DNA of 23,150 nt from a virus. Below the pieces are notes generated by a model, which saw only the letters and a program-made list of their open reading frames with translations, was not told the DNA's origin and ran no database searches. The stretch covers positions 1 to 23,150 of the IMG/VR virus record IMGVR_UViG_3300037493_004751. One strand, 5' to 3'. The position numbers and the translations under genes were made by a program. Shown piece after piece: positions 1 to 19,594 of this stretch; the first letter of the stretch is position 1; each line of letters opens with the position of its first letter.

Positions 1-164
1 TCAAAGCGGTCGGATCGTTCCCACATTTCTCGTGTAGTTGAATGTGAAAGACCTGCGGGGCCATCTTCTACGGCATCAAACAACGATTTCCGCAAAAACT
101 CGTCAACTCGGATCATTTCCAAGAGGGGTAGCGGGTCGTACTGGTCTTGCATTGGTGTCCTCAT
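1..164 (-). CDS. Partial hypothetical protein, C-terminal part beyond left edge
   Basis: This open frame starts at the ATG read from 164 and runs off the left edge with no stop, giving 54 codons. Its start overlaps the stop of the upstream gene (161-418) in an ATGA arrangement, the usual sign of translational coupling, so it is probably the second gene of the leftward operon. The N-terminus reads MRTPMQDQYDPLPLLEM and the visible part is acidic and hydrophilic, with no membrane segment and no motif I recognise. It is too short and incomplete for a function. The coupling and the lack of stops are what is seen; its reality as a gene is inferred from them. Confidence 0.55.
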   Translation of the reverse strand, partial: MRTPMQDQYDPLPLLEMIRVDEFLRKSLFDAVEDGPAGLSHSTTREMWERSDRF

Positions 165-418
165 GGCGATTTTTTTGGAACCATCACAAAGTCAAATCCC
201 GCAAGTTTTGCCATCGCAATCGCCATCCCAAACGATGGTAGGCGTTGCCCAGTCATCGTTTCGCTGTCCGCGAGCAGGCATTCGGCGGTGTGAACCGCAC
301 AGATTTCTGCGTCTGAGACTTTTCTTACAAAGGTGTATCGGCTCATTCCGTGAGTCGCAAGTTGTTTCCGCATGGCGATTTTCCAATCGGCAGGGCTGTT
401 TAGTTTGGCGGGTTTCAT
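161..418 (-). CDS. Small helix-turn-helix-like protein, candidate phage regulator
   Basis: 85 residues. The central part (about residues 14-75) has the alternating helical pattern of XRE-type DNA-binding domains: a basic helix around MRKQLATHGMSRYTFVRK, then a segment ending in SFGMAIAMAKLAGFDFVMVPKK, much like the C-terminal helix and strand of phage Cro/CI-like folds. I cannot match it to a named family, so DNA binding is an inference. It is the first gene of the leftward operon, divergent from everything at 545-6636, a position typical of a phage repressor. Its promoter (426-454) puts transcription within a base of the ATG, so it should be translated from a leaderless mRNA, as lambda cI is from PRM. 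It is a reasonable candidate to bind the CCTAY-N6-RTAGG operators, but nothing in the sequence proves this. Confidence 0.7.
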   Translation of the reverse strand: MKPAKLNSPADWKIAMRKQLATHGMSRYTFVRKVSDAEICAVHTAECLLADSETMTGQRLPSFGMAIAMAKLAGFDFVMVPKKSP

Positions 419-425
419 GGGTTAC

Positions 426-454
426 AGTCTACTGTGACGAAGGGTATGCGTCAA
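426..454 (-). promoter_or_regulatory. Sigma70-type promoter for the leftward operon, leaderless start
   Basis: On the minus strand TTGACG (454-449), a 17-bp spacer and TAGACT (431-426) match the -35 and -10 consensus at 5/6 and 4/6. The expected start of transcription is at 419-418, which is the A of the ATG of the downstream gene. No Shine-Dalgarno sequence precedes that ATG. Confidence 0.75.
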
Positions 455-503
455 CAAATTTGGAATTTTTTGGGGCGTTTCGCAGTCGAATATCATCCGC
501 GCT

Positions 504-540
504 GACCCCTCCGCTCGCCCTATAGGGGCTACGGGGGGTC
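504..540. repeat. GC-rich inverted repeat around a CCCTATAGGG palindrome
   Basis: Arms at 504-513 and 532-540 can pair (9 bp with one unpaired T) and enclose the perfect 10-bp palindrome CCCTATAGGG at 518-527. It lies between the leftward promoter and the plus-strand promoter at 545-572. Its CCTA and TAGG half-sites resemble those of the four operator palindromes, but without the 6-bp centre. There is no U-tract, so it is not an intrinsic terminator. It could be a regulator-binding site between divergent promoters; function unknown. Confidence 0.45.
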
Positions 541-544
541 GCGG

Positions 545-572
545 CTGACGGTTTAAGAGAGAGAGATATAGT
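545..572 (+). promoter_or_regulatory. Putative promoter for the structured RNA
   Basis: CTGACG (545-550), a 16-bp purine-rich spacer and TATAGT (567-572) give 4/6 and 5/6 matches to sigma70 boxes. Transcription would start near 579, just before the first hairpin of the structured region. Unlike the four early cassettes it has no CCTA/TAGG palindrome in its spacer, so it is probably regulated differently. Confidence 0.5.
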
Positions 573-578
573 CACATG

Positions 579-957
579 GGAGCGAGTGGGGAAACCATGA
601 CCCCTTGCACAGAGGTCACGGAATAGCCGCACGGTCGCGGAGCAGGTTCCTTGGGCATCACTTCCACCATTTCGTTGTCAGCCGCTGCTGTGATGCAAGA
701 GCGCGTAGATCCGAGAATCTACGGCGTGGAGTAGGGTCAGACTCCACGACGAGGCGACTGGGGAGTCGCGACAAGTGCCGAGTACGGACCCCTCGACGGG
801 TGGTGCAGCGGTAGCCGACAGACGGCGTGCAAGGCGTGGTATGCTGCTCACGCTTGAGGATGTGTGGTAGTCGCCTTTCCCGAGATAGGAAGCGACTACC
901 GCGCACAGCGTACCGACTTTGACTGGCCTTGTGCTGTCAAGGTCGGTTTTTCTTTTT
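579..957 (+). ncRNA. Candidate structured non-coding RNA, about 380 nt, family unknown
   Basis: No protein gene is convincing here, but the plus strand folds by eye into a chain of hairpins: 598-602/614-618 (5 bp), 627-630/637-640 (4 bp), 650-661/690-699 (10 bp with a 2-nt bulge), 704-710/717-723 (7 bp), 725-732/741-748 (8 bp), 754-759/764-769 (6 bp, GGGG loop), 814-817/823-826 (4 bp), 831-838/849-855 (7 bp with one bulge) and 866-880/888-900 (13 bp with a 2-nt bulge). An intrinsic terminator follows at 912-957. Several stems are perfect and nearly abut, far more than expected in coding or random DNA. A promoter-like pair lies just upstream. I looked for conserved cores of RNase P RNA, tmRNA, tRNA and group I and II introns and did not find them. 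The 5' end is inferred from the promoter; the 3' end from the terminator. Confidence 0.68.
912..957 (+). terminator. Intrinsic terminator of the structured RNA
   Basis: A 12-bp stem (912-923 with 936-947, one G-U pair, 12-nt loop) is followed directly by five T, one C and five more T. It reads only in the plus direction and sits 38 bp before the -35 box of the first early promoter, so it insulates the two transcripts. Confidence 0.85.
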
Positions 958-995
958 GCAAACCAAACTATTTTTTTTATTTTTGGATTTTGCTA

Positions 996-1024
996 TTGCG
1001 CCCTACGGCAAAGTAGGGTATATT
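996..1024 (+). promoter_or_regulatory. Early promoter cassette copy 1 with operator in spacer
   Basis: TTGCGC (996-1001), a 17-bp spacer and TATATT (1019-1024). The spacer contains CCTAC-GGCAAA-GTAGG, one of four CCTAY-N6-RTAGG inverted repeats at the same place in four promoters. A protein on this palindrome would cover the DNA between -35 and -10 and block polymerase. Exactly 6 nt follow the -10 box before the conserved hairpin. Confidence 0.8.
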
Positions 1025-1030
1025 GAGGAG

Positions 1031-1049
1031 GTCGGGAATGTCTCCCGAC
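1031..1049 (+). promoter_or_regulatory. Conserved 5' mRNA hairpin, copy 1
   Basis: Perfect 7-bp stem GTCGGGA/TCCCGAC with loop ATGTC, followed by CTAAC. It would be at the extreme 5' end of the transcript, consistent with an RNA-stabilising or protein-binding element. The AUG in the loop is in frame with the gene start at 1071 (11 codons upstream), but it has no Shine-Dalgarno, and the AAAGGA at 1058-1063 clearly serves the later ATG. Confidence 0.75.
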
Positions 1050-1070
1050 CTAACCCGAAAGGATTTCGTT

Positions 1071-1490
1071 ATGGACATTAAGAAACTTGTCAAGATCGCA
1101 GAGGCTCGCAAGGAAGCATGGGAGGCTTGCACAAAAGCCAAGGCGGCCGCAATGGCCTCAAGCCTCGCGTGGAAAAACGCTCGTCGAGATCACTATCTTG
1201 ACTTGATCGACGCGGAGTGCAAAGTGCGTGTTGTGGAAATCACAAGTGACGCACGGCTTGCAATGTCGCGCTCGGGTGAGTTTGTCCAAAGTCAGGCGGC
1301 GTACTACGGCACGGTGGAAAAGGCTTACCGAGGCCGCAAGCACTTCGGGGTTGTGTGGGTGACCCCTACTGGGGACCGCATGGTTCAAACCATCGGTGAT
1401 CTTGAGCGCGGCTGCGAGTGCCGTGTGCATGGCATCCCGTACCCCTCGGCACGACTTGAAGATTACTGCGCTGTCAAGTCATCAACCTAA
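1071..1490 (+). CDS. Early protein of unknown function
   Basis: 139 residues, first gene of early unit 1. I chose the ATG at 1071 because AAAGGA ends 7 nt before it and because the upstream in-frame AUG lies in the hairpin loop. Residues 1-60 are rich in A, K, E and R and look helical or coiled (VKIAEARKEAWEACTKAKAA). The C-terminal half looks like a compact alpha/beta domain with a CECRVHG segment containing two cysteines and a histidine, possibly a half metal site. I recognise no family. It is followed by a strong hairpin with a short U-run (1500-1533), so it may be made in larger amounts than the genes behind it. Confidence 0.75.
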   Translation: MDIKKLVKIAEARKEAWEACTKAKAAAMASSLAWKNARRDHYLDLIDAECKVRVVEITSDARLAMSRSGEFVQSQAAYYGTVEKAYRGRKHFGVVWVTPTGDRMVQTIGDLERGCECRVHGIPYPSARLEDYCAVKSST

Positions 1491-1499
1491 ACCCACAAC

Positions 1500-1533
1500 G
1501 CGGGGGTGGGGCTTCGGCCCCGCCCCCGCTTTT
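1500..1533 (+). terminator. Very stable UUCG hairpin with short U-run, leaky terminator or stabiliser
   Basis: A 13-bp G/C stem with one G-U pair (1500-1512 with 1517-1529) is capped by a TTCG tetraloop and followed by only four T. The next gene starts 16 nt later with no promoter of its own that I can see. Partial termination, or a 3'-end stabiliser that lowers downstream expression, fits better than full termination. Confidence 0.7.
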
Positions 1534-1548
1534 ACAAAAGGATTTCAA

Positions 1549-1941
1549 ATGAATATCTCTGATGCATTCGACGCTGCTCTCTCCGATGTCAAATCTCCTA
1601 CTACTTGGTATGTCTGCTTGATGCTGCGCGAGCAGTACTACGGCGGACCCGAAGAGGGGGGTTGGTACGGATACGACACCACCCTTGTGCGATTTGCCAA
1701 ATTTCCGTCAGAGGAGGCAGCGTGGGACGGGGCTGAAAAAGTCAAGCGTCTTGCGGCGTGTGAATCCAGTAGGGCGGTGGAGGATTTCAACCGTATGTGC
1801 CTGCGTTCGTGTGACGAGGCCGAGGCTCGCAATGAGGATGTGGACAGGTTGCCCGAAGTCGGTGGACCCGACTCGTACCGCGTGATCGTGACAAACCAAT
1901 TGCCTGCACGGTTTGACGCGGGATCGAGGTACTACGAATGA
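1549..1941 (+). CDS. Early hypothetical protein
   Basis: 130 residues. The ATG at 1549 is preceded by AAAAGGA (1536-1542). In-frame extension upstream would translate the terminator-like hairpin, so it is rejected. The sequence starts MNISDAFDAALSDVK and continues with an aromatic and glycine segment (REQYYGGPEEGGWYGYDTT), then a predicted helix (EEAAWDGAEKVKRLAA) and an acidic tail. The pattern of strand plus helix suggests a small alpha/beta protein. No family is recognised. Its stop overlaps the next ATG (ATGA at 1938-1941), so it is coupled to the CsrA-like gene. Confidence 0.7.
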   Translation: MNISDAFDAALSDVKSPTTWYVCLMLREQYYGGPEEGGWYGYDTTLVRFAKFPSEEAAWDGAEKVKRLAACESSRAVEDFNRMCLRSCDEAEARNEDVDRLPEVGGPDSYRVIVTNQLPARFDAGSRYYE

Positions 1942-2156
1942 CATTCCCGATTCTCGACATGACAGACATCACTTGTGTTGTGATGACGATGCGCTCGGAC
2001 CGCGAGCATTTGATTTTTCACACGACAGATGGGGTGATTACGGTTCAACTCAAACCGATGGGTAGACGAAAAACAGGTATCCATATTTTTGCTCCCCGCA
2101 AGGTCTTGATTCGCCGCGAGCCAACCAAGGAGGAATCACAAAATGCAGCAGTTTGA
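1938..2156 (+). CDS. CsrA-like RNA-binding protein candidate
   Basis: 72 residues, close to the usual 60-70 of CsrA. Aligned by eye to E. coli CsrA, residues 19-62 carry the family landmarks. R19 and E23 fall at CsrA R6 and E10, then comes a strand DGVITVQL, then the block GIHIFAPRKVLIRRE, with AP at 52-53 and RE at 60-61. These match AP36-37 and the RNA-contacting R44-E45 of CsrA. The first 15 residues are an extension. CsrA proteins are dimers that bind GGA in mRNA hairpins near ribosome sites and block or stabilise messages. If this one works the same way, targets could be host mRNAs or the phage's own hairpin leaders. It is coupled by ATGA to the gene before it, and the next gene starts inside its end. 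The fold assignment is inference from a short alignment. Confidence 0.6.
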   Translation: MTFPILDMTDITCVVMTMRSDREHLIFHTTDGVITVQLKPMGRRKTGIHIFAPRKVLIRREPTKEESQNAAV

Positions 2157-2472
2157 AACACTCTTTGATTCCGCCGAAGCAGATCGCCGCATGGAGGCGG
2201 GTATTGCGCTCGCGTCCTCAAGTCAAATGCGTAACGCCCTGCTGAGGGTCGCTCAGGGACACGCGAGGAGTCTCTGTGTCACGCAGGGGTGGGTGACGAG
2301 CGATTGCGTTTGCCGACGCATGGCGGAGAGGGGGTTTGATTACGCGGATTTAGGGAACGCGGCGGGAGCGGTTTTTCGCGGCGGGTTTTCGTGGACTGGT
2401 GAAGTGCAGCGGTCCACTCGCGTGTCTACCCACGGGAGAATCATCCGCGTGTGGAGGATTCGGAATGATTGA
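2143..2472 (+). CDS. Hypothetical phage protein, winged-helix-like
   Basis: 109 residues. A strong ribosome site AAGGAGG (2127-2133) lies inside the end of the CsrA-like gene, 9 nt before the ATG. Residues 1-40 are helical. Residues 45-109 (QGWVTSDCVCRRMAERGF, then GNAAGAVFRGG, then STHGRIIRVWRI) give a helix-turn-helix followed by two beta strands, the layout of a winged-helix domain. Similar small proteins with a NAAG-F--G core are common in phage early regions, but I cannot name the family with certainty. DNA or RNA binding is an inference. Confidence 0.65.
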   Translation: MQQFETLFDSAEADRRMEAGIALASSSQMRNALLRVAQGHARSLCVTQGWVTSDCVCRRMAERGFDYADLGNAAGAVFRGGFSWTGEVQRSTRVSTHGRIIRVWRIRND

Positions 2473-2671
2473 CAGCCTGAAATATTTTTCGGGGATCGTG
2501 CGCGCAAGCGTTGAAATGTGTCCAACTCGCAGCGGCATCATTGGCAAACTCGACTACGCGATTCCAATCCGCCTCATCTTTGAGTGCGCCGACGATGTCG
2601 CGAAACTGCACGATGAAATCGAAGCACTTAAAGCGGAAGTCAAAAAATTAAAAAGACAATCTCGTGTGTGA
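2465..2671 (+). CDS. Small coiled-coil protein
   Basis: 68 residues. The ATG at 2465 overlaps the end of the previous gene by 8 bases and is preceded by GGAGGA (2453-2458). The C-terminal third (DDVAKLHDEIEALKAEVKKL, about residues 43-62) has leucine and aliphatic residues in heptad spacing and should form a short coiled coil, so the protein probably oligomerises. The N-terminal part is mixed hydrophobic without a clear membrane segment. It lies directly before RusA, whose GTG start overlaps its end. Function unknown. Confidence 0.65.
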   Translation: MIDSLKYFSGIVRASVEMCPTRSGIIGKLDYAIPIRLIFECADDVAKLHDEIEALKAEVKKLKRQSRV

Positions 2672-3086
2672 GTTTTTTGCTCACGGGATCCCTGCGCCAC
2701 AGGGATCCAAAAACCTAGTACGACTACGCTCGGGTCGCACCATCATGATTGAGGCATCTAAGCGTGTGATGCCTTGGAGGGCTGTCATCGCGGCCTCTGC
2801 GGTCGCCGCGAGAGTGCAAATGCACGAGCAGGATGTGGAGGTGCGGATTGTTGCGCGGTGGACGCGGCCTGCGTCACACTTTACCGCGAGCGGCCTGCTA
2901 CGGAAATCATCCCCAGTCCTCCCCCGTTACGCCGACTGCGACAAACTCGCTAGGGCTGTGTGTGACGCTCTCGCAGGGATTGCCTACCGAAACGACAGGC
3001 AGGTGGGCAAACTCTCTGTAGAGCGACGGTGGTGTCTCGCTGAAGAGGCGAGTGGCGCATTCATTTCTGTGTTGGCGCATACCTGA
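2664..3086 (+). CDS. rusA: RusA-family Holliday junction resolvase
   Basis: 140 residues, normal for RusA. The N-terminal GIPAPQGSKN and the core DCDKLARAVCDALAGIAYRND-RQV are signature segments of the family. Three aspartates, D91, D93 and D111, fit the catalytic metal-binding positions (D70, D72 and D91 in E. coli RusA). RusA dimers cut four-way DNA junctions symmetrically after recombination or replication. Phage copies often sit beside annealing recombinases, and bet follows here. The start is a GTG at 2664 overlapping the stop of the previous gene; the ribosome site is weak, so translation is probably coupled. A 7-8 bp inverted repeat (3070-3077/3093-3100) straddles its stop codon. Confidence 0.9.
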   Translation: MCEFFAHGIPAPQGSKNLVRLRSGRTIMIEASKRVMPWRAVIAASAVAARVQMHEQDVEVRIVARWTRPASHFTASGLLRKSSPVLPRYADCDKLARAVCDALAGIAYRNDRQVGKLSVERRWCLAEEASGAFISVLAHT

Positions 3087-3100
3087 TTTTCTCGCCAACA
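3070..3100. repeat. Inverted repeat around the rusA stop codon
   Basis: TGTTGGCG (3070-3077) and CGCCAACA (3093-3100) are perfect 8-bp arms around a 15-nt loop that contains the rusA stop. No U-run follows on either strand, so it is not an intrinsic terminator. It may protect the 3' end of the rusA transcript from exonucleases. It abuts the -35 box of early promoter 2. Confidence 0.55.
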
Positions 3101-3103
3101 AAC

Positions 3104-3132
3104 TTGCATCCTATATCTCAATAGGGTAAATT
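3104..3132 (+). promoter_or_regulatory. Early promoter cassette copy 2 with operator in spacer
   Basis: TTGCAT (3104-3109), a 17-bp spacer with the inverted repeat CCTAT-ATCTCA-ATAGG, and TAAATT (3127-3132). Geometry is identical to the other three copies, with 6 nt to the hairpin. It drives bet and the Gp157-like gene. Confidence 0.82.
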
Positions 3133-3138
3133 GACACC

Positions 3139-3156
3139 GTTGGGAATGATCCCAAC
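3139..3156 (+). promoter_or_regulatory. Conserved 5' mRNA hairpin, copy 2
   Basis: Perfect 7-bp stem GTTGGGA/TCCCAAC with loop ATGA. Relative to copies 1 and 4 the second pair from the base pair position changes from C-G to T-A on both sides, a compensatory change that supports an RNA stem. The loop AUG opens only a 4-codon frame here. Confidence 0.78.
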
Positions 3157-3177
3157 CTAACACTAGAGGAAAACAGC

Positions 3178-4161
3178 ATGGAACTGGCAACAATTAAAAC
3201 AGGGCTTTCGCACGAGCAGGTCGATCTACTCTCCCGCACCATCGCGAAGGGCTGCAACCCTGACGAACTGGCGTTGTTCTCGTCCATCTGTGACCGCACG
3301 GGACTTGACCCGTTCGCTCGGCAGATCTACGCGATTCAGCGGTGGGATTCTCGCGAAAATCGAAACATCATGCAGACTCAAATCTCGATTGATGGGGCGC
3401 GGTTAGTCGCGCAGCGATCAGGCGAGTACGCGGGGCAAGACGGACCGTACTGGTGCGGTCCTGATGGCAAATGGGTAGATGTGTGGCTTGATGCCTTGCC
3501 GCCGACGGCGGCTCGCGTCGGCGTGATGCGTAAGGGTTTTGCGGGTCCCCTGTACGCAGTTGCCTTGTGGCGAGAGTATGTGCAGACTACGAAAAATGGG
3601 GGGGTCACGACGATGTGGGCAAAAATGCCAAGCCTCATGATTGCAAAGTGCAGCGAGGCTCTTGCGCTGCGAAAAGCGTTTCCTGCGGAACTGTCAGGGC
3701 TGTACACGAGTGAGGAAATGTCACAGGCTGAAGTGCCTGCGGCGGTTACTCCCGTTGATGTCCCTGTCCGCACAGATGGGTTGCTGCTTCCCCCAGTAAA
3801 GTCGAGCGCGAAGCATGACCCCTCGATGTTTTCTTCCGAGCCGACGCTAAAGCAAGTTGTTCCCGTTGATTTGAAGCCCATTGTGGTCGCAAAGCCCAAG
3901 CCGAAATCAACACAAAAGTGGCCTGCGACGGGGACTGATGTCGTGAGGGTGGAGAAACTGGTGGAGCGCGGAGACGGCTACGCGCTGCTTTGCGCGCACC
4001 CTGTGCATGGACAGTCGTGGGTTTCGGCAAGTCCTCTGAGCGCGTGGACTGTCGCCGCAGACACGAACATCGAACTGACTTGGCGGTGGAACGCTGTCGG
4101 CTTCTGTGAGGCGACCGAGATCCGAGATCAGCCACAGATTCGCGACTTTGTTGCTCTGTAA
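3178..4161 (+). CDS. bet: Bet/RecT-family single-strand annealing recombinase
   Basis: 327 residues. Residues about 10-180 match the phage Bet family, with segments [41 protein letters not shown], then [11 protein letters not shown] and [21 protein letters not shown], ending [10 protein letters not shown]. Bet anneals complementary single strands and drives phage recombination, usually with an exonuclease; none is seen in the window. Typical Bet proteins are about 260 residues. Here residues 185-250 form a proline, valine and lysine-rich linker, and residues 250-327 form an extra domain ([20 protein letters not shown] and [16 protein letters not shown]) that I do not recognise. AGAGGAAA lies just before the ATG. 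It is first in unit 2, and RusA lies immediately upstream in unit 1, so the two probably cooperate. Confidence 0.92.
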
Positions 4162-4192
4162 TTCACCCCCCCCCTCCAACACACGAGAAGCC

Positions 4193-4702
4193 ATGAGCCT
4201 GTACGCCATCACAGAAAATTTGAAGTCATTAGTCGGAGCGTTTGAGGAACACGGCCACGCCTCTGACGAGGCCGCTGCCGCCATCGCGGAACACACGAGC
4301 GCGCTAATCGAGTCGTTTGACGCGAAGGTCGATGACTACGCCGCGTTGATTCGGTCCTGCGAAAGTCGCGCAGCAGGACGGGCCGAAGAGGCCGCTCGCA
4401 TGAAAAAACTGGCACAGGATGACGAGTCGCTTGCAACGCGGCTGCGACTGGCGGTGATGATCGCCATGAAAGAAACGGGACAGCCTCAGATTCAAACGGC
4501 TCGCTTTTCGTTGTCGGTCGTGAAAAACGGCGGAGCCGTACCCGTCATTATCAGCGACGAGGCTGAACTGCCTGAGGAATTTCGTGTTCCCACCGTTACC
4601 ATCACGGTTGACAAGGTCGCAATTCGTGCGGCACTTGAAGCAGGCGAGACGGTGAACGGGGCCACGCTTGGCGAGCGAGGGACACGCCTCAACCTTAAAT
4701 AG
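4193..4702 (+). CDS. Siphovirus Gp157-family protein
   Basis: 169 residues. The layout fits the Gp157 family found in many siphoviruses: an N-terminal helical and coiled-coil part to about residue 95 (DAKVDDYAALIRSCESRAAG, then MKKLAQDDESLATRLRLAV), then a beta-rich C-terminal half (TARFSLSVVKNGG, ELPEEFRVPTVTITVDKVAIRAALEAGE, TLGERGTRLNLK). The biochemical role is not established; in streptococci a homologue has been linked to phage resistance. The start at 4193 is the first ATG after a run of C bases; its ribosome site is weak (GAGAAG). It follows bet by 31 bp and is closed by the terminator at 4729-4752. Confidence 0.8.
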   Translation: MSLYAITENLKSLVGAFEEHGHASDEAAAAIAEHTSALIESFDAKVDDYAALIRSCESRAAGRAEEAARMKKLAQDDESLATRLRLAVMIAMKETGQPQIQTARFSLSVVKNGGAVPVIISDEAELPEEFRVPTVTITVDKVAIRAALEAGETVNGATLGERGTRLNLK

Positions 4703-4728
4703 CCCTGCCCCAGTCACCTAACCCATGC

Positions 4729-4752
4729 GCCCCGAGTTCGGGGCTTTTTTTT
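4729..4752 (+). terminator. Intrinsic terminator of unit 2
   Basis: GCCCCG (4729-4734) and CGGGGC (4739-4744) with a 4-nt loop, followed by eight T. It lies 26 bp after the stop of the Gp157-like gene and 20 bp before early promoter 3. Confidence 0.88.
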
Positions 4753-4771
4753 ATTTTTGGGACGCTGCAAC

Positions 4772-4800
4772 TTGAAACCTACTGATTAGTAGGGTACGGT
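4772..4800 (+). promoter_or_regulatory. Early promoter cassette copy 3 with operator in spacer
   Basis: TTGAAA (4772-4777), a 17-bp spacer with CCTACT-GATT-AGTAGG, the most symmetric operator (6-bp arms), and a weaker -10 box TACGGT (4795-4800). Six nt follow before the hairpin, as in the other copies. Confidence 0.8.
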
Positions 4801-4806
4801 TCGTGC

Positions 4807-4825
4807 GTTGGGAATGCTTCCCGAC
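4807..4825 (+). promoter_or_regulatory. Conserved 5' mRNA hairpin, copy 3, plus a second small hairpin
   Basis: GTTGGGA (4807-4813) and TCCCGAC (4819-4825) form a 7-bp stem with one G-U pair; loop ATGCT. A second 5-bp hairpin GCGAC/GTCGC (4834-4838 and 4843-4847) follows, unique to this leader. The loop AUG opens a 17-codon frame that ends with a TGA overlapping the start of the next gene. Confidence 0.72.
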
Positions 4826-4863
4826 CTAAAAACGCGACAAGAGTCGCAGAAACGAGACAGACA

Positions 4864-5136
4864 ATGACCGCAGAGAATAAATCAACAACCGCCCTTGCAA
4901 ACGCTTCGGATTTTTTCGCCGCCTGCACAGACCTCCGCAACGCCGTTAGGGTTCGTCGCGAGCGCGAGGAGCGAGAATTTCGCGATATGCAATGTTGGGG
5001 TCCGTTGTTGTCGCACTCCCAATACCGCCTCATGAAGGATCGCATGGATCGGTTCATGCTTACGACACCCGAGGATCAGGCGTTGACCGCGTTGGTTTCG
5101 GCCTACAACCTTTCAGTCATTGCTAACGCTAAGTAA
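4864..5136 (+). CDS. Small early protein of unknown function
   Basis: 90 residues, first gene of unit 3. The start at 4864 has no clear Shine-Dalgarno (AACGAGACAGACA precedes it), so translation may depend on the 17-codon leader frame whose stop overlaps it. The protein is largely helical and highly charged in the middle (RRREREEREFRDMQ, about residues 31-43) and polar elsewhere. There are no cysteine pairs, membrane segments or family motifs I recognise. It ends 17 bp before the CxxC protein gene and is probably co-transcribed with it. Confidence 0.65.
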   Translation: MTAENKSTTALANASDFFAACTDLRNAVRVRREREEREFRDMQCWGPLLSHSQYRLMKDRMDRFMLTTPEDQALTALVSAYNLSVIANAK

Positions 5137-5153
5137 AAACAAAGGGATCAAAC

Positions 5154-5387
5154 ATGAAAATCATTGGCTACACATACGACGCTGCGAACCATTGCCCCAA
5201 CTGCACACGCGAGGCCGCAGCCAACGGAACGCTGACCCGAGAGCCGCCGTTGAGGCGCGAGACTGACGAACATGGGGTTCCGCGAGACTTGGTGGACCGA
5301 AGCGTAAACGAGGTGGGGGCGTTGTTTGACACGGACGAAAATGTCGATCCACGCTTCTGCGACGATTGCTTTGAGGAGTTGACATGA
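5154..5387 (+). CDS. Small CxxC zinc-binding-type protein
   Basis: 77 residues. Two cysteine pairs, HCPNC (about residues 13-17) and FCDDC (about 68-72), bracket an acidic middle, as in small zinc-ribbon proteins where both pairs bind one metal. The opening MKIIGYTYDAANHCPNCT and the phrase DEHGVPRDLVDR are characteristic of a family of small accessory proteins scattered through phages and plasmids. They have no known function, and I know the type but not a name. GGGATCAAAC precedes the ATG. The gene is closed by the terminator at 5398-5424. Confidence 0.72.
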   Translation: MKIIGYTYDAANHCPNCTREAAANGTLTREPPLRRETDEHGVPRDLVDRSVNEVGALFDTDENVDPRFCDDCFEELT

Positions 5388-5397
5388 TTCAAATACG

Positions 5398-5424
5398 CGC
5401 CCCGAGGTCGGGGCGTTTTTTTTT
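5398..5424 (+). terminator. Intrinsic terminator of unit 3
   Basis: CGCCCCG (5398-5404) and CGGGGCG (5409-5415) with a 4-nt loop, then nine T. It is nearly the same sequence as the unit 2 terminator, and like it stands just before an early promoter cassette. Confidence 0.9.
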
Positions 5425-5443
5425 ATTTTTGTGATGCGTTCCC

Positions 5444-5472
5444 TTGCCCCCTACCGATTGATAGGGTATGTT
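5444..5472 (+). promoter_or_regulatory. Early promoter cassette copy 4 with operator in spacer
   Basis: TTGCCC (5444-5449), a 17-bp spacer with CCTA-CCGATTGA-TAGG, and TATGTT (5467-5472). Arms are one pair shorter than in copies 1-3. Six nt follow before the hairpin. Confidence 0.82.
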
Positions 5473-5478
5473 TCACCC

Positions 5479-5497
5479 GTCGGGAATGTCTCCCGAC
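5479..5497 (+). promoter_or_regulatory. Conserved 5' mRNA hairpin, copy 4
   Basis: Perfect 7-bp stem GTCGGGA/TCCCGAC with loop ATGTC, identical to copy 1, followed by CTAAC and the ribosome site AAAAGGA (5504-5510). The loop AUG is in frame with the gene at 5519, 11 codons upstream, exactly as in copy 1. Confidence 0.78.
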
Positions 5498-5518
5498 CTA
5501 ACCAAAAGGATTTTGATC

Positions 5519-6118
5519 ATGACAAATGCAAACACTCGCCAAACCGCCAAATCCCTTCAAACCGCCGCAATGGACGCAATTCAGTTGTCGCTTAACGCGA
5601 TTTGCGACCGAGCCAACGACCCAACCGCTCGAATTATTCGCGACGAAGCGCAGGTTCAAATTGATTTCTGTTTTCACATTGGGCTGATTACCCCCGCGCA
5701 AAAGTACGAACTTTACGACCAGTTCGGCTTCGCCATTCGGCTCCACTCTGCGCGACCCTACCGAGCGACGATTGCTGAAATGCTCCCGCTCTATGTCATC
5801 TGCGTAGAGCCGCACGACGCTTCTCCGCGATTCGTTGTGCGTACCAATCAGCAGGGGTACATCATTGAAATGACCCGCGACTGCCACGAGGCTAAATCGT
5901 TTGTCTCGTTTGACGAGGCCAACCGTGCAATGAATATTTGCGTCGGTTGGGCTGACACCCGTTGCATCATGGATGTCCGCACGGGGTTGGCAGTTTCGGA
6001 CCCCGCTGCCGAGCGTGTGGAATACCTGCGAGTGTCCGCTATTGCGGATCGTCAAGAAGCCCGTGAGTCAAACGACACGCCCGTCTTCATGACCGACCGC
6101 GAGCCTGAACTGGACTAA
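5519..6118 (+). CDS. Early protein of unknown function
   Basis: 199 residues, sole gene of unit 4. The ATG at 5519 follows AAAAGGA by 8 nt; the upstream in-frame AUG in the hairpin loop has no ribosome site. Residues 1-75 look helical (AMDAIQLSLNAICDRAND, RIIRDEAQVQIDFCFHIGL). Residues 80-175 look like alternating strands and helices (MLPLYVICVEPHD, RFVVRTNQQGYIIEMTRD, SFDEANRAMNICVG), suggesting a two-domain protein. The tail is acidic. No family recognised. It has its own regulated promoter and terminator, so it is expressed as a separate unit under the same control as bet. Confidence 0.72.
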   Translation: MTNANTRQTAKSLQTAAMDAIQLSLNAICDRANDPTARIIRDEAQVQIDFCFHIGLITPAQKYELYDQFGFAIRLHSARPYRATIAEMLPLYVICVEPHDASPRFVVRTNQQGYIIEMTRDCHEAKSFVSFDEANRAMNICVGWADTRCIMDVRTGLAVSDPAAERVEYLRVSAIADRQEARESNDTPVFMTDREPELD

Positions 6119-6140
6119 GCCCTAAAACACTTTGTCTCGG

Positions 6141-6170
6141 CGCGTCCCAAAGTTGGGGCGCGTTTTTTTT
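6141..6170 (+). terminator. Intrinsic terminator of unit 4
   Basis: CGCGTCCCA (6141-6149) and TGGGGCGCG (6154-6162), 9 bp with one G-U pair and a 4-nt loop, followed by eight T. Confidence 0.88.
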
Positions 6171-6196
6171 ATTCTCAATCCGCTTGCGGATATCGT
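6168..6196 (+). promoter_or_regulatory. Weak putative promoter before the HTH gene
   Basis: TTTATT (6168-6173), 17 bp and TATCGT (6191-6196) would start transcription at about 6203, the base before the ATG, so again a leaderless message. The -35 match is poor (3/6) and overlaps the terminator U-run. Confidence 0.3.
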
Positions 6197-6203
6197 AGGG
6201 GCC

Positions 6204-6440
6204 ATGAAAGCGAGATCAAAAATCCCACAATTGGAACTGGCGGAACTCGGCGTGGATTGGCTGACTACAGGACAGGTAGCGCGGCGGCTAGGTGTGTCCG
6301 CTGCCACAGTTTCTAAATGGATTGATTCAGGGAGGCTACTCGGTATGCGCCTGCCCGAATCGCAGGCAAGGCGGGTTCACCCTGAGGCCCTACGCGAGTT
6401 CTGTCAACGGGAGGGGTTTGATCGTGCGCGAGGCGGCTGA
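6204..6440 (+). CDS. Excisionase/MerR-type helix-turn-helix protein
   Basis: 78 residues from the ATG at 6204; further upstream the frame would translate the terminator. Residues 19-70 match the HTH_17 type of small DNA-binding protein: WLTTGQVARRLGVSAATVSK is the helix-turn-helix, followed by the wing segment WIDSGRLLGMRLPESQARRV and the helix HPEALREFCQREG. Such proteins act as excisionases or as small transcription regulators. No integrase is visible, so a regulator is at least as likely. No good Shine-Dalgarno precedes the start (GTAGGGGCC), which fits a leaderless message. The next gene starts inside its end. Confidence 0.82.
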   Translation: MKARSKIPQLELAELGVDWLTTGQVARRLGVSAATVSKWIDSGRLLGMRLPESQARRVHPEALREFCQREGFDRARGG

Positions 6441-6636
6441 GGCCGCTGAGGCCGCGCAGCGCGAGCGGGAGCGTCTTGCGCTCGTCATCACGCTTGGGGC
6501 GGTGCGGATGCTCCTGTGGGAGTCGCCTACGGATTCAGGAGTGAACGATGCCTACCGCAGACTTCTGACACACGCCGAGGGGGTGTTGCGTGACGAAATG
6601 TTGCCGCGATATTCTAAAGTTTGCGACACATTGTAA
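6424..6636 (+). CDS. Small helical protein, last gene of the rightward arm
   Basis: 70 residues from a GTG at 6424, chosen because GGGAGGGG (6409-6416) lies 7 nt upstream inside the HTH gene. The frame overlaps that gene by 17 bases. The N-terminus is a charged alanine-rich helix (REAAEAAEAAQRERERLAL), followed by a hydrophobic helix (ITLGAVRMLLWE) and a basic C-terminal helix. It is soluble in appearance, with no recognised motif. It is probably made together with the HTH protein and could be its partner, which is only inference from overlap. Confidence 0.55.
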   Translation: MREAAEAAEAAQRERERLALVITLGAVRMLLWESPTDSGVNDAYRRLLTHAEGVLRDEMLPRYSKVCDTL

Positions 6637-6693
6637 AATCCGCTATTCTCTACCTGCCGTCACGAGGCCACCCTTTGATCTTTTCCCCTAGCG

Positions 6694-6722
6694 TCCCCCT
6701 TTCACCTATGTTGGAAGGGGGA
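6694..6722. terminator. Hairpin between convergent transcription arms
   Basis: Arms 6694-6703 and 6714-6722 pair over 9 bp with one bulged T and a 10-nt loop. On the plus strand the stem is followed by a T-rich stretch (TGTTTATTT). On the minus strand there is no U-run. It therefore looks mainly like the end of the rightward transcripts, placed against the stop codon of the last late gene. Confidence 0.6.
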
Positions 6723-6725
6723 TGT

Positions 6726-7172
6726 TTATTTAGGAGACTCGATAAATCCAAGTGGGAGCGGCAATTTTGGTGAATCGGGGAGATCCCACAAAGCCAACGG
6801 GCATTTTGCGCTCGGCATAGTTGCCTTGACAGTCAACTCAGATCTCCGATTCTCGCCGCAGCCGCATCGAGTGCAATATCCAAGTTTTCCTTCTTCGTCA
6901 ACTCGTTTGAGTTTGGTGCAGGCGTTACAGGTTTCAAGCCTTGCCACAAGCACATCGTGCGCGACTGGGCCACAGGCTAAAAGGCTTGCTTCTGCCTTAA
7001 CCCACGAAAGCCCCTTGGCAACTAACCCCTGCTTGTGTGGGTCTGTGCGCCCGACGGTAACTCCAACAAGTTTTATGCTTTTGCATTCAGAACATCGTGA
7101 CTCAGGCGCATCTCCACCACCGATTTTGGGATGTCGGCACAATCCCTCTGACCACCAAAAACACGCGCTCAT
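6726..7172 (-). CDS. Cysteine-rich zinc-ribbon-like protein, end of late operon
   Basis: 148 residues from the ATG at 7172, which overlaps the stop of the preceding gene (ATGA). There are two metal-binding-type regions: an N-terminal one (CFWWSEGLCRHP and ESRCSEC, residues about 4-30) and a central one (LETCNACTKL, then YCTRCGCGENRR and KCPLALW, residues about 83-135). The second resembles a zinc-ribbon module, C-x2-C...C-x2-C-x-C...C, seen in unnamed phage proteins. The end is proline-rich. It is the last gene of the late operon. A structural or DNA-associated role is possible; nothing in the sequence decides. Confidence 0.72.
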   Translation of the reverse strand: MSACFWWSEGLCRHPKIGGGDAPESRCSECKSIKLVGVTVGRTDPHKQGLVAKGLSWVKAEASLLACGPVAHDVLVARLETCNACTKLKRVDEEGKLGYCTRCGCGENRRSELTVKATMPSAKCPLALWDLPDSPKLPLPLGFIESPK

Positions 7173-18553: not shown

Positions 18554-19594
18554 TTAGGCGAGGACATTCTGAATCGCGAATCCGCCGACTGACGCGACAA
18601 GAGCGGGGATGCTGTTGTCGATCACGCGGCCTTCGATGCGACGGTTCATTGGGTCATTGAACTGCTCGACCGTCATGTCCTCGTAGGCGAAGATTTGCAG
18701 CGTCGAGAACGACGATGCACCTTCAGTTCCAACGAGTCCGCTTGGACGCGACAGGAAGTACGCACCGTTGCCGAGGACATACGAGCGAGTGTCGGTTTGT
18801 CCCTTTTTCGAGGTAACCTTGACGGCATCCTCGACAACAACATCGGCAAGGCCGAAAAGGGTCGGCGGGATACCCCACTTCGCAAAAGTGTCGCTTCCTT
18901 GCAGGTACTGGATACCCGCTTGGAACTTCACATAGTCCTGAATTTCAGGGGCTTGCGAAATGATATTCGCGGTGGCAGGCGAGATCACCATGATCAACTG
19001 GTTTGGGTTGACCGCGCCACCAGACGAAAGGCTAACGATTCGCATCGCTTGCTGAATCGACTTTTGGATGTAGCGGTTGGCGGTGGTGGATCCATCCCAC
19101 GAACCTGTCGCGGTGTATGGACCCGTTGTGGCTCCTGCGGCGGTCGTGTAGTTCGTTCCCCAGTTTGCGTTGGTGGTAAGAACCGTCGCCGCTGCCATCG
19201 AGCGACGAGTCATTGCCAACTGGGCCTTGGATCGTGCGTGTTGCGCCACGACATCCCACGAAGCCTGTGCGGCAGATTCCTGCGGAATGTAGAACGGGAA
19301 GCCGAATCGGGCCGTGGTGAACTGCACGAATTCAAACGAATTTTGTTTACCCGTTGGGCGGTCGTTTCCAAGCGGCCACGCGTACTCTTTCTCGTCGCCA
19401 ACGCGGGAGTTATCCGCGTTGTCTTGCTTCAGGTAGAAGCCCGTCATCTTTGCCGTGGGAATCAATGTCGCGTAACGCGACAGGGCAAAAGTGTTAACGG
19501 AACGCGTGAACTCAACTTGCAACGCACCCGTTGCAAGGTCGTTCGTACTTGGGATGTAGGTCGAAAGACCGCCACCCACAACTGTAAATGCCAT
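18554..19594 (-). CDS. Major capsid protein
   Basis: 346 residues, the expected length of a Mu-like or HK97-fold major capsid protein. It lies between the protease/scaffold, the decoration-like gene and the connectors. Mixed alpha/beta composition, the segment FGFPFYIPQESAAQASWDVV and a late SFSTLQIFAYEDMTVEQFND domain fit HK97-type subunits. AGAGGA lies before the ATG. The first 18 residues contain the peptide GGGLSTYIPST, also present in the protease/scaffold protein as GGGLSTFIPST. There is no long N-terminal delta domain, consistent with a separate scaffold. The opposite strand has a long spurious open frame from codon bias. Confidence 0.85.
   Translation of the reverse strand: MAFTVVGGGLSTYIPSTNDLATGALQVEFTRSVNTFALSRYATLIPTAKMTGFYLKQDNADNSRVGDEKEYAWPLGNDRPTGKQNSFEFVQFTTARFGFPFYIPQESAAQASWDVVAQHARSKAQLAMTRRSMAAATVLTTNANWGTNYTTAAGATTGPYTATGSWDGSTTANRYIQKSIQQAMRIVSLSSGGAVNPNQLIMVISPATANIISQAPEIQDYVKFQAGIQYLQGSDTFAKWGIPPTLFGLADVVVEDAVKVTSKKGQTDTRSYVLGNGAYFLSRPSGLVGTEGASSFSTLQIFAYEDMTVEQFNDPMNRRIEGRVIDNSIPALVASVGGFAIQNVLA

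Follow-up and report, generated by a model that had tools for sequence, protein, structure and literature searches.

The window, by which we mean the whole 23,150-nucleotide stretch analysed here, is a 23-kb virus record (IMGVR_UViG_3300037493_004751) from a family of tailed phages of about 31 to 37 kb seen solely in metagenomes. It carries genes for RusA (2664-3086), RecT (3178-4161) and a major head protein (18554-19594), the last without a match among 50,697 cultured-phage records. Near its left end lies REG, a gene for a small conserved protein on the minus strand (161-418), and beside it, not overlapping it, a locus that almost certainly encodes a structured non-coding RNA, also on the minus strand (504-900). 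The first-pass annotation had proposed a structured RNA gene of unknown family in the phage's regulatory region. This much stands, but it was wrong about the strand and the ends, about the promoter and about what the terminator does, and neither the convergent antisense arrangement nor the pseudoknots described below had been part of it.

Relatives were gathered with RecT and the head protein, then with conserved motifs and a profile. The RNA element is present in 24 contigs, window included, of one uncultured phage family, and 19 rows were taken from these as distinct sequences. Identity among homologues goes down to about 70%, with stem sequences wholly changed. The short pattern GTATGCTGCTCACGC, used alone, gave mostly chance hits among the matches listed, yet it brought in further true homologues. 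All 20 of the pattern matches in bacterial genomes failed the profile, and so none of them pointed to a host; plasmid matches came down to a 46-nt chance similarity within traI. The large terminases fall into two lineages that are very far apart, one in four contigs (G001, G033, G034 and G039) and one in the others, although the head genes of these phages are otherwise similar; this looks like an exchange of terminases.

Searches with the region 545-957 found no cultured phage by blastn, no tRNA and no tmRNA, and neither the region nor its homologues matched an Rfam family near or at gathering score. There was thus, as the first-pass annotation had it, no known RNA core: ROOL, GOLLD, OLE, RNase P, tmRNA and group I and II introns gave no Rfam match to the locus. 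That the minus-strand RNA is a previously undescribed family, absent from Rfam, is well supported.

The row of many hairpins noticed at the outset was borne out, and on either strand every dinucleotide shuffle of the region folds less well than the region itself (z of -2.75 on plus, -4.32 on minus). The strand is decided by G-U pairs. Using a helix finder that treats both strands alike, we counted in helices h1 to h5 657 Watson-Crick pairs, with 40 G-U pairs when read on the minus strand and 2 when read on the plus strand. Helix h1 is the main source (25 on minus, 0 on plus), and over-extended helix ends in two homologues (L077 and L210) add a small part of the asymmetry. An RNA on the minus strand is the sole explanation for it, and the covariance model agrees, scoring 150 bits on minus and 9 bits on plus. 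The same asymmetry bears on a DNA-level element, such as a single-strand origin or a packaging or recombination site, whose hairpins would act as single-stranded DNA. Phages need such sites, and the stems could form on either DNA strand; however, a one-strand excess of G-U pairs is a mark of RNA, and conserved promoters and a terminator surround the locus, so that we find this reading scarcely probable.

The fold itself is conserved. In an alignment of minus-strand sequences (A3), in which four helices with 25 pairs were scored, standard pairs fill 98.1% of cells compared with 81.1% in shuffles, double changes number 81 compared with 21, and covariation is 0.517 compared with 0.174, a signal that is lost when helix partners are slid. 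Stem changes that went uncompensated in homologues had been named as evidence against a structured RNA; the homologue stems are compensated. Helix h2 (655-661 with 690-696), which encloses the conserved CGAAAUGGU, is paired at 100% across the 19 homologues in the A3 alignment, with double changes at five of its seven pairs and at least seven different sequences. A later-found homologue outside the model (L277) scores on the minus strand with an E-value of 2e-43 and has one more compensated version of h2. The other hairpins of the core are h1 (595-602 with 614-621), h3 (704-710 with 717-723) and h4 (725-732 with 741-748, with the conserved loop UGACCCUAC), all found by the helix finder and in A3, and h5 (754-759 with 764-769), found by the helix finder; all lie on the minus strand. 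In two homologues (L067 and L136) an extra hairpin of about 30 nt with TTCCACTTCC-type arms is inserted between the core and h1, and the RNA therefore tolerates peripheral stems.

Toward its 5' end, the minus-strand RNA has a hairpin P1 (834-838 with 849-853) whose loop pairs downstream (P2, 843-847 with 805-809), a hairpin H8, and an H-type pseudoknot (779-801) with a conserved CCGUA linker. P1 is Watson-Crick in 75 of 75 cells in 15 homologues; P2 is paired in 82 of 90, compared with 66 in shuffles. In the H-type pseudoknot, helix A (788-791 with 798-801) is Watson-Crick in 58 of 60 cells, and the inner, 4-bp helix B (779-782 with 792-795) in 60 of 60, with 14 distinct arm pairs (shuffled 32 +/- 3.5). 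These arms were picked out by eye, so the significance against shuffles is somewhat overstated.

On both strands, every reading frame is interrupted somewhere among the homologues, in keeping with the initial impression that no protein frame was convincing; a conserved frame would have spoken against the RNA. A mini-frame on the minus strand (MVKTMPMGNLAAAPCG) was considered and dropped: stops or shifts break it in L066, L080, L205 and L183. A type I toxin-antitoxin locus, with a minus-strand mRNA for a tiny toxin and an antisense antitoxin, would have the geometry of hok/sok, in which a long folded mRNA faces a short antisense RNA. All three minus frames, however, are interrupted in several homologues, with indels that do not come in threes, and no minus frame is conserved. 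We regard such a locus as extremely unlikely.

The ends of the minus-strand RNA are less sharply drawn. It would be about 320 to 390 nt long, starting near 900, conserved to about 577 and perhaps continuing to 504. A -10-like element, TACGCT (TAnnnT, minus, 907-912), was found by promoter scan; in the homologues a TTGnnn lies 16-17 nt upstream of it. This promoter ranks first or second among minus sites in about 9 to 10 of the 19 homologues, and in the window it has a weak -35 and stands outside the top four sites. At the other end, a regular terminator was sought, and no conserved U-tract terminator lies past the core in the homologues. Most of them have GC-rich inverted repeats downstream of the core on the minus strand, and in the window such a repeat without a U-tract (504-540) is a candidate 3' end. 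In L069, L087, L205 and L206, GCAACTG direct repeats flank GC hairpins downstream of the core on the minus strand, and after them comes a long inverted repeat rich in GC, GCGGGGGCGC..GCGCCCCCCGC; this region may be the 3' terminus of the RNA or may belong to an origin.

On the plus strand, a promoter and a terminator are conserved, and they very probably delimit a convergent antisense RNA of about 105 nt (852-957), made of hairpin h10 (861-906) and the terminator h11, with a folding z of -6.2. Its -10-like element, TATGCT with an extended TG (840-845), lies within P1. A TAnnnT is found inside P1 in every homologue, usually with TTG 16-17 nt upstream, and in 13 of the 19 homologues the site outscores all other plus promoter candidates among about 480 positions, while it ranks in the top four in all. 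We considered whether RNA pairing (nnnTGC with GCAnnn) could by itself account for this TAnnnT in P1; the TTG box and the top rank in 13 of 19 support a promoter as well. Hairpin h10 follows this site in the homologues. The terminator h11 (912-923 with 936-947, U-tract 947-957) has a 12-bp stem and a split U-run, and 18 of the 19 homologues have a terminator in the corresponding position, with stems that differ yet are compensated. The plus-strand RNA would be antisense to the 5' end of the minus-strand RNA: the minus -10 directly adjoins h11, and the predicted overlap is about 50 nt in the window, across h10, and short in two homologues (L077 and L072).

These features recast the transcript first proposed, a single plus-strand RNA of 370-380 nt running from a promoter at 545-572 to the terminator ending at 957. 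The window does hold a promoter-like pair (CTGACG-N16-TATAGT) and a terminator on the plus strand, and the 12-bp stem with its split U-run is confirmed, at 912-957; it would close, however, a separate short RNA starting near 852. The 545-572 promoter was not seen in the homologues, the plus promoter located behind the core shows better conservation, and both the G-U asymmetry and the covariance scores point to the other strand. A single plus-strand RNA is accordingly most improbable.

REG has no match in Pfam or PHROG, is conserved across almost the whole group of phages, those lacking the RNA included, and is a likely candidate for the regulator of repeated early promoters. A promoter-leader module is indeed repeated before early genes (956-1065, 4740-4829, 5412-5501 and, in part, 6145-6172), with a T-run, a TTGC-like box, a spacer inverted repeat CCCTAC..GTAGGG and a leader hairpin TCGGGAATGT..CCCGA; it probably serves a single phage regulator as a common operator. 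The minus-strand RNA might be a long structured leader, an attenuator or riboswitch, of REG, toward which the minus strand runs in the window, L003, L066, L136 and L072. However, REG has its own promoter between the RNA and the gene, starting a few tens of bases past the last hairpin in L066 and L136. The distance from the RNA to REG ranges from 0.05 to 4.7 kb in homologues, where further genes intervene. In G004, G023 and G024 different genes follow the RNA, the early genes being on its other side. Synteny thus speaks against a REG leader, which we rate very improbable. The variable distance and the differing orientation to early genes indicate that the RNA is a stand-alone module.

What such a module might do is suggested by the replication genes. 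The DUF1376 protein, which PHROGs labels primosomal (E-value 1e-8), is absent from 22 of 22 carriers of the RNA, and present in five of five near-complete relatives in which a profile and the covariance model found no RNA, as well as in two further contigs without it (G021 and G029). A DnaB-type helicase is absent from the carriers (20 of 22 examined). Among the pooled early proteins of 14 carriers, 14 Pfam families were matched, and these included no initiator, helicase, primase, polymerase or integrase. The PHROGs comparison of the carriers' proteins covered the best 25 of 41 families; a 'DNA primase' match was not counted, since in G034 it falls on a C5-methylase gene. An initiator of an unrecognised family may have been missed by these Pfam and PHROGs searches. 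Iterons were not found in positions 1-7000 of the window, and GC skew does not point consistently to the element or to an origin.

The split between RNA and DUF1376 is confounded by descent: it amounts to one change on the TerL and portal trees, where phages without the RNA form one clade, and three on the MCP tree, and further gene families divide along the same line. All five relatives without the RNA have DUF932, an exonuclease-like gene and other families (29180-30196 in G025, and families 89, 102, 105, 107 and 108), all absent or nearly so in carriers, and the exchange therefore involved a gene module larger than DUF1376 alone.

Two scenarios are considered. In the first, to which we give an even chance, the locus is an antisense-controlled RNA that initiates replication. 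The minus-strand RNA, with its conserved hairpins and two pseudoknots, would fold and, close to its 3' end, remain on the DNA that encodes it, supplying a primer or landing site at which host enzymes would begin copying the phage genome. The plus-strand RNA, starting within the 5' domain of the minus-strand RNA and ending beside the minus promoter, would pair with its first hairpin (h10) and limit initiation, as RNA I does on RNA II in ColE1. The missing U-tract terminator on the minus strand is expected if the RNA is a primer. Against this scenario stand the weak minus promoter in the window, the short overlap in L077 and L072, the inconsistent GC skew, the confounding of the DUF1376 split by descent and the lack of similarity to mycobacteriophage origin RNA; moreover, a simple primer would need fewer conserved loops. 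A bolder version, which we think rather unlikely, is that a multi-pseudoknot RNA replaces the primosomal protein and itself recruits the host replication machinery, under convergent antisense control and unrelated to the ColE1 and mycobacteriophage origins.

In the second scenario, the RNA would act in trans as a new structured family, with a host or phage protein as target or in an assembly like those of ROOL and GOLLD; its antisense RNA would tune its level, and the DUF1376 split would reflect shared descent. Invariant loops and two pseudoknots suggest a surface that binds protein or RNA, and the split requires just one to three events. However, the carriers would then be left without a recognised replication start, and an antisense RNA that converges on a 5' end is typical of replication control; we see this scenario as possible but on the doubtful side. 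If the replication scenario is true, it would explain how a phage family without recognisable initiator, helicase or primase replicates.

Whichever scenario applies, the locus brings to the known non-coding RNAs of phages one that has two covarying pseudoknots and a putative antisense partner. Large RNAs with extensive structure are known from bacteria and phages (ROOL, GOLLD and OLE; PMC12286853), compared with which the present RNA is smaller and without Rfam match. The hok/sok-type loci resemble the predicted layout in that a short antisense RNA lies on the 5' side of a long folded one, and differ in that no conserved reading frame is found here. In phage T4, the R-loop origins oriF and oriG use transcript-primed replication, the feature by which, on description only, the proposed locus resembles them; oriF and oriG are not known to have a large conserved fold or an antisense RNA.

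The closest parallel is ColE1 RNA II and RNA I. In both systems a long folded RNA lacks a conserved terminator, and a short antisense RNA of hairpins and a terminator runs, here by prediction, from the 5' domain to beside the promoter of the long RNA; by its sequence features, the antisense RNA here would converge on the 5' end of the long one and have a promoter and terminator to itself. No initiator of a known family is recognised in the carriers, although they may encode one of another family. Unlike ColE1, the locus has no sequence or Rfam similarity to RNAI or a related family, sits in a phage, has two antisense hairpins rather than three, and combines two covarying pseudoknots and many invariant loops with an origin role that is putative.

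Mycobacteriophages have RNA-primed origins and, according to the sections of PMC7157519 that deal with them, the origin in their prophages relies on RepA in some and on a non-coding RNA in others. In the cluster A phages Alma, LadyBird and RedRock, as presented there, the non-coding RNA region spans 400-500 nt and RepA occurs only in relatives, a likeness to our phages. The covariance model, however, did not match Alma or RedRock (no match to L278 and at best 3.1 bits in L279, the mycobacteriophage origin sequences), nor did blastn, and these origins are therefore an analogy, not members of the same family. In addition, parABS lies beside the mycobacteriophage RNA origins in those sections of PMC7157519, whereas the pooled carrier proteins gave ParB-like matches only and no ParA family in Pfam; and the same sections describe no antisense RNA at the origin RNA, unlike the arrangement predicted here. 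If the RNA described here does start replication, it would be a second, differently built case of an RNA-based origin in phages.
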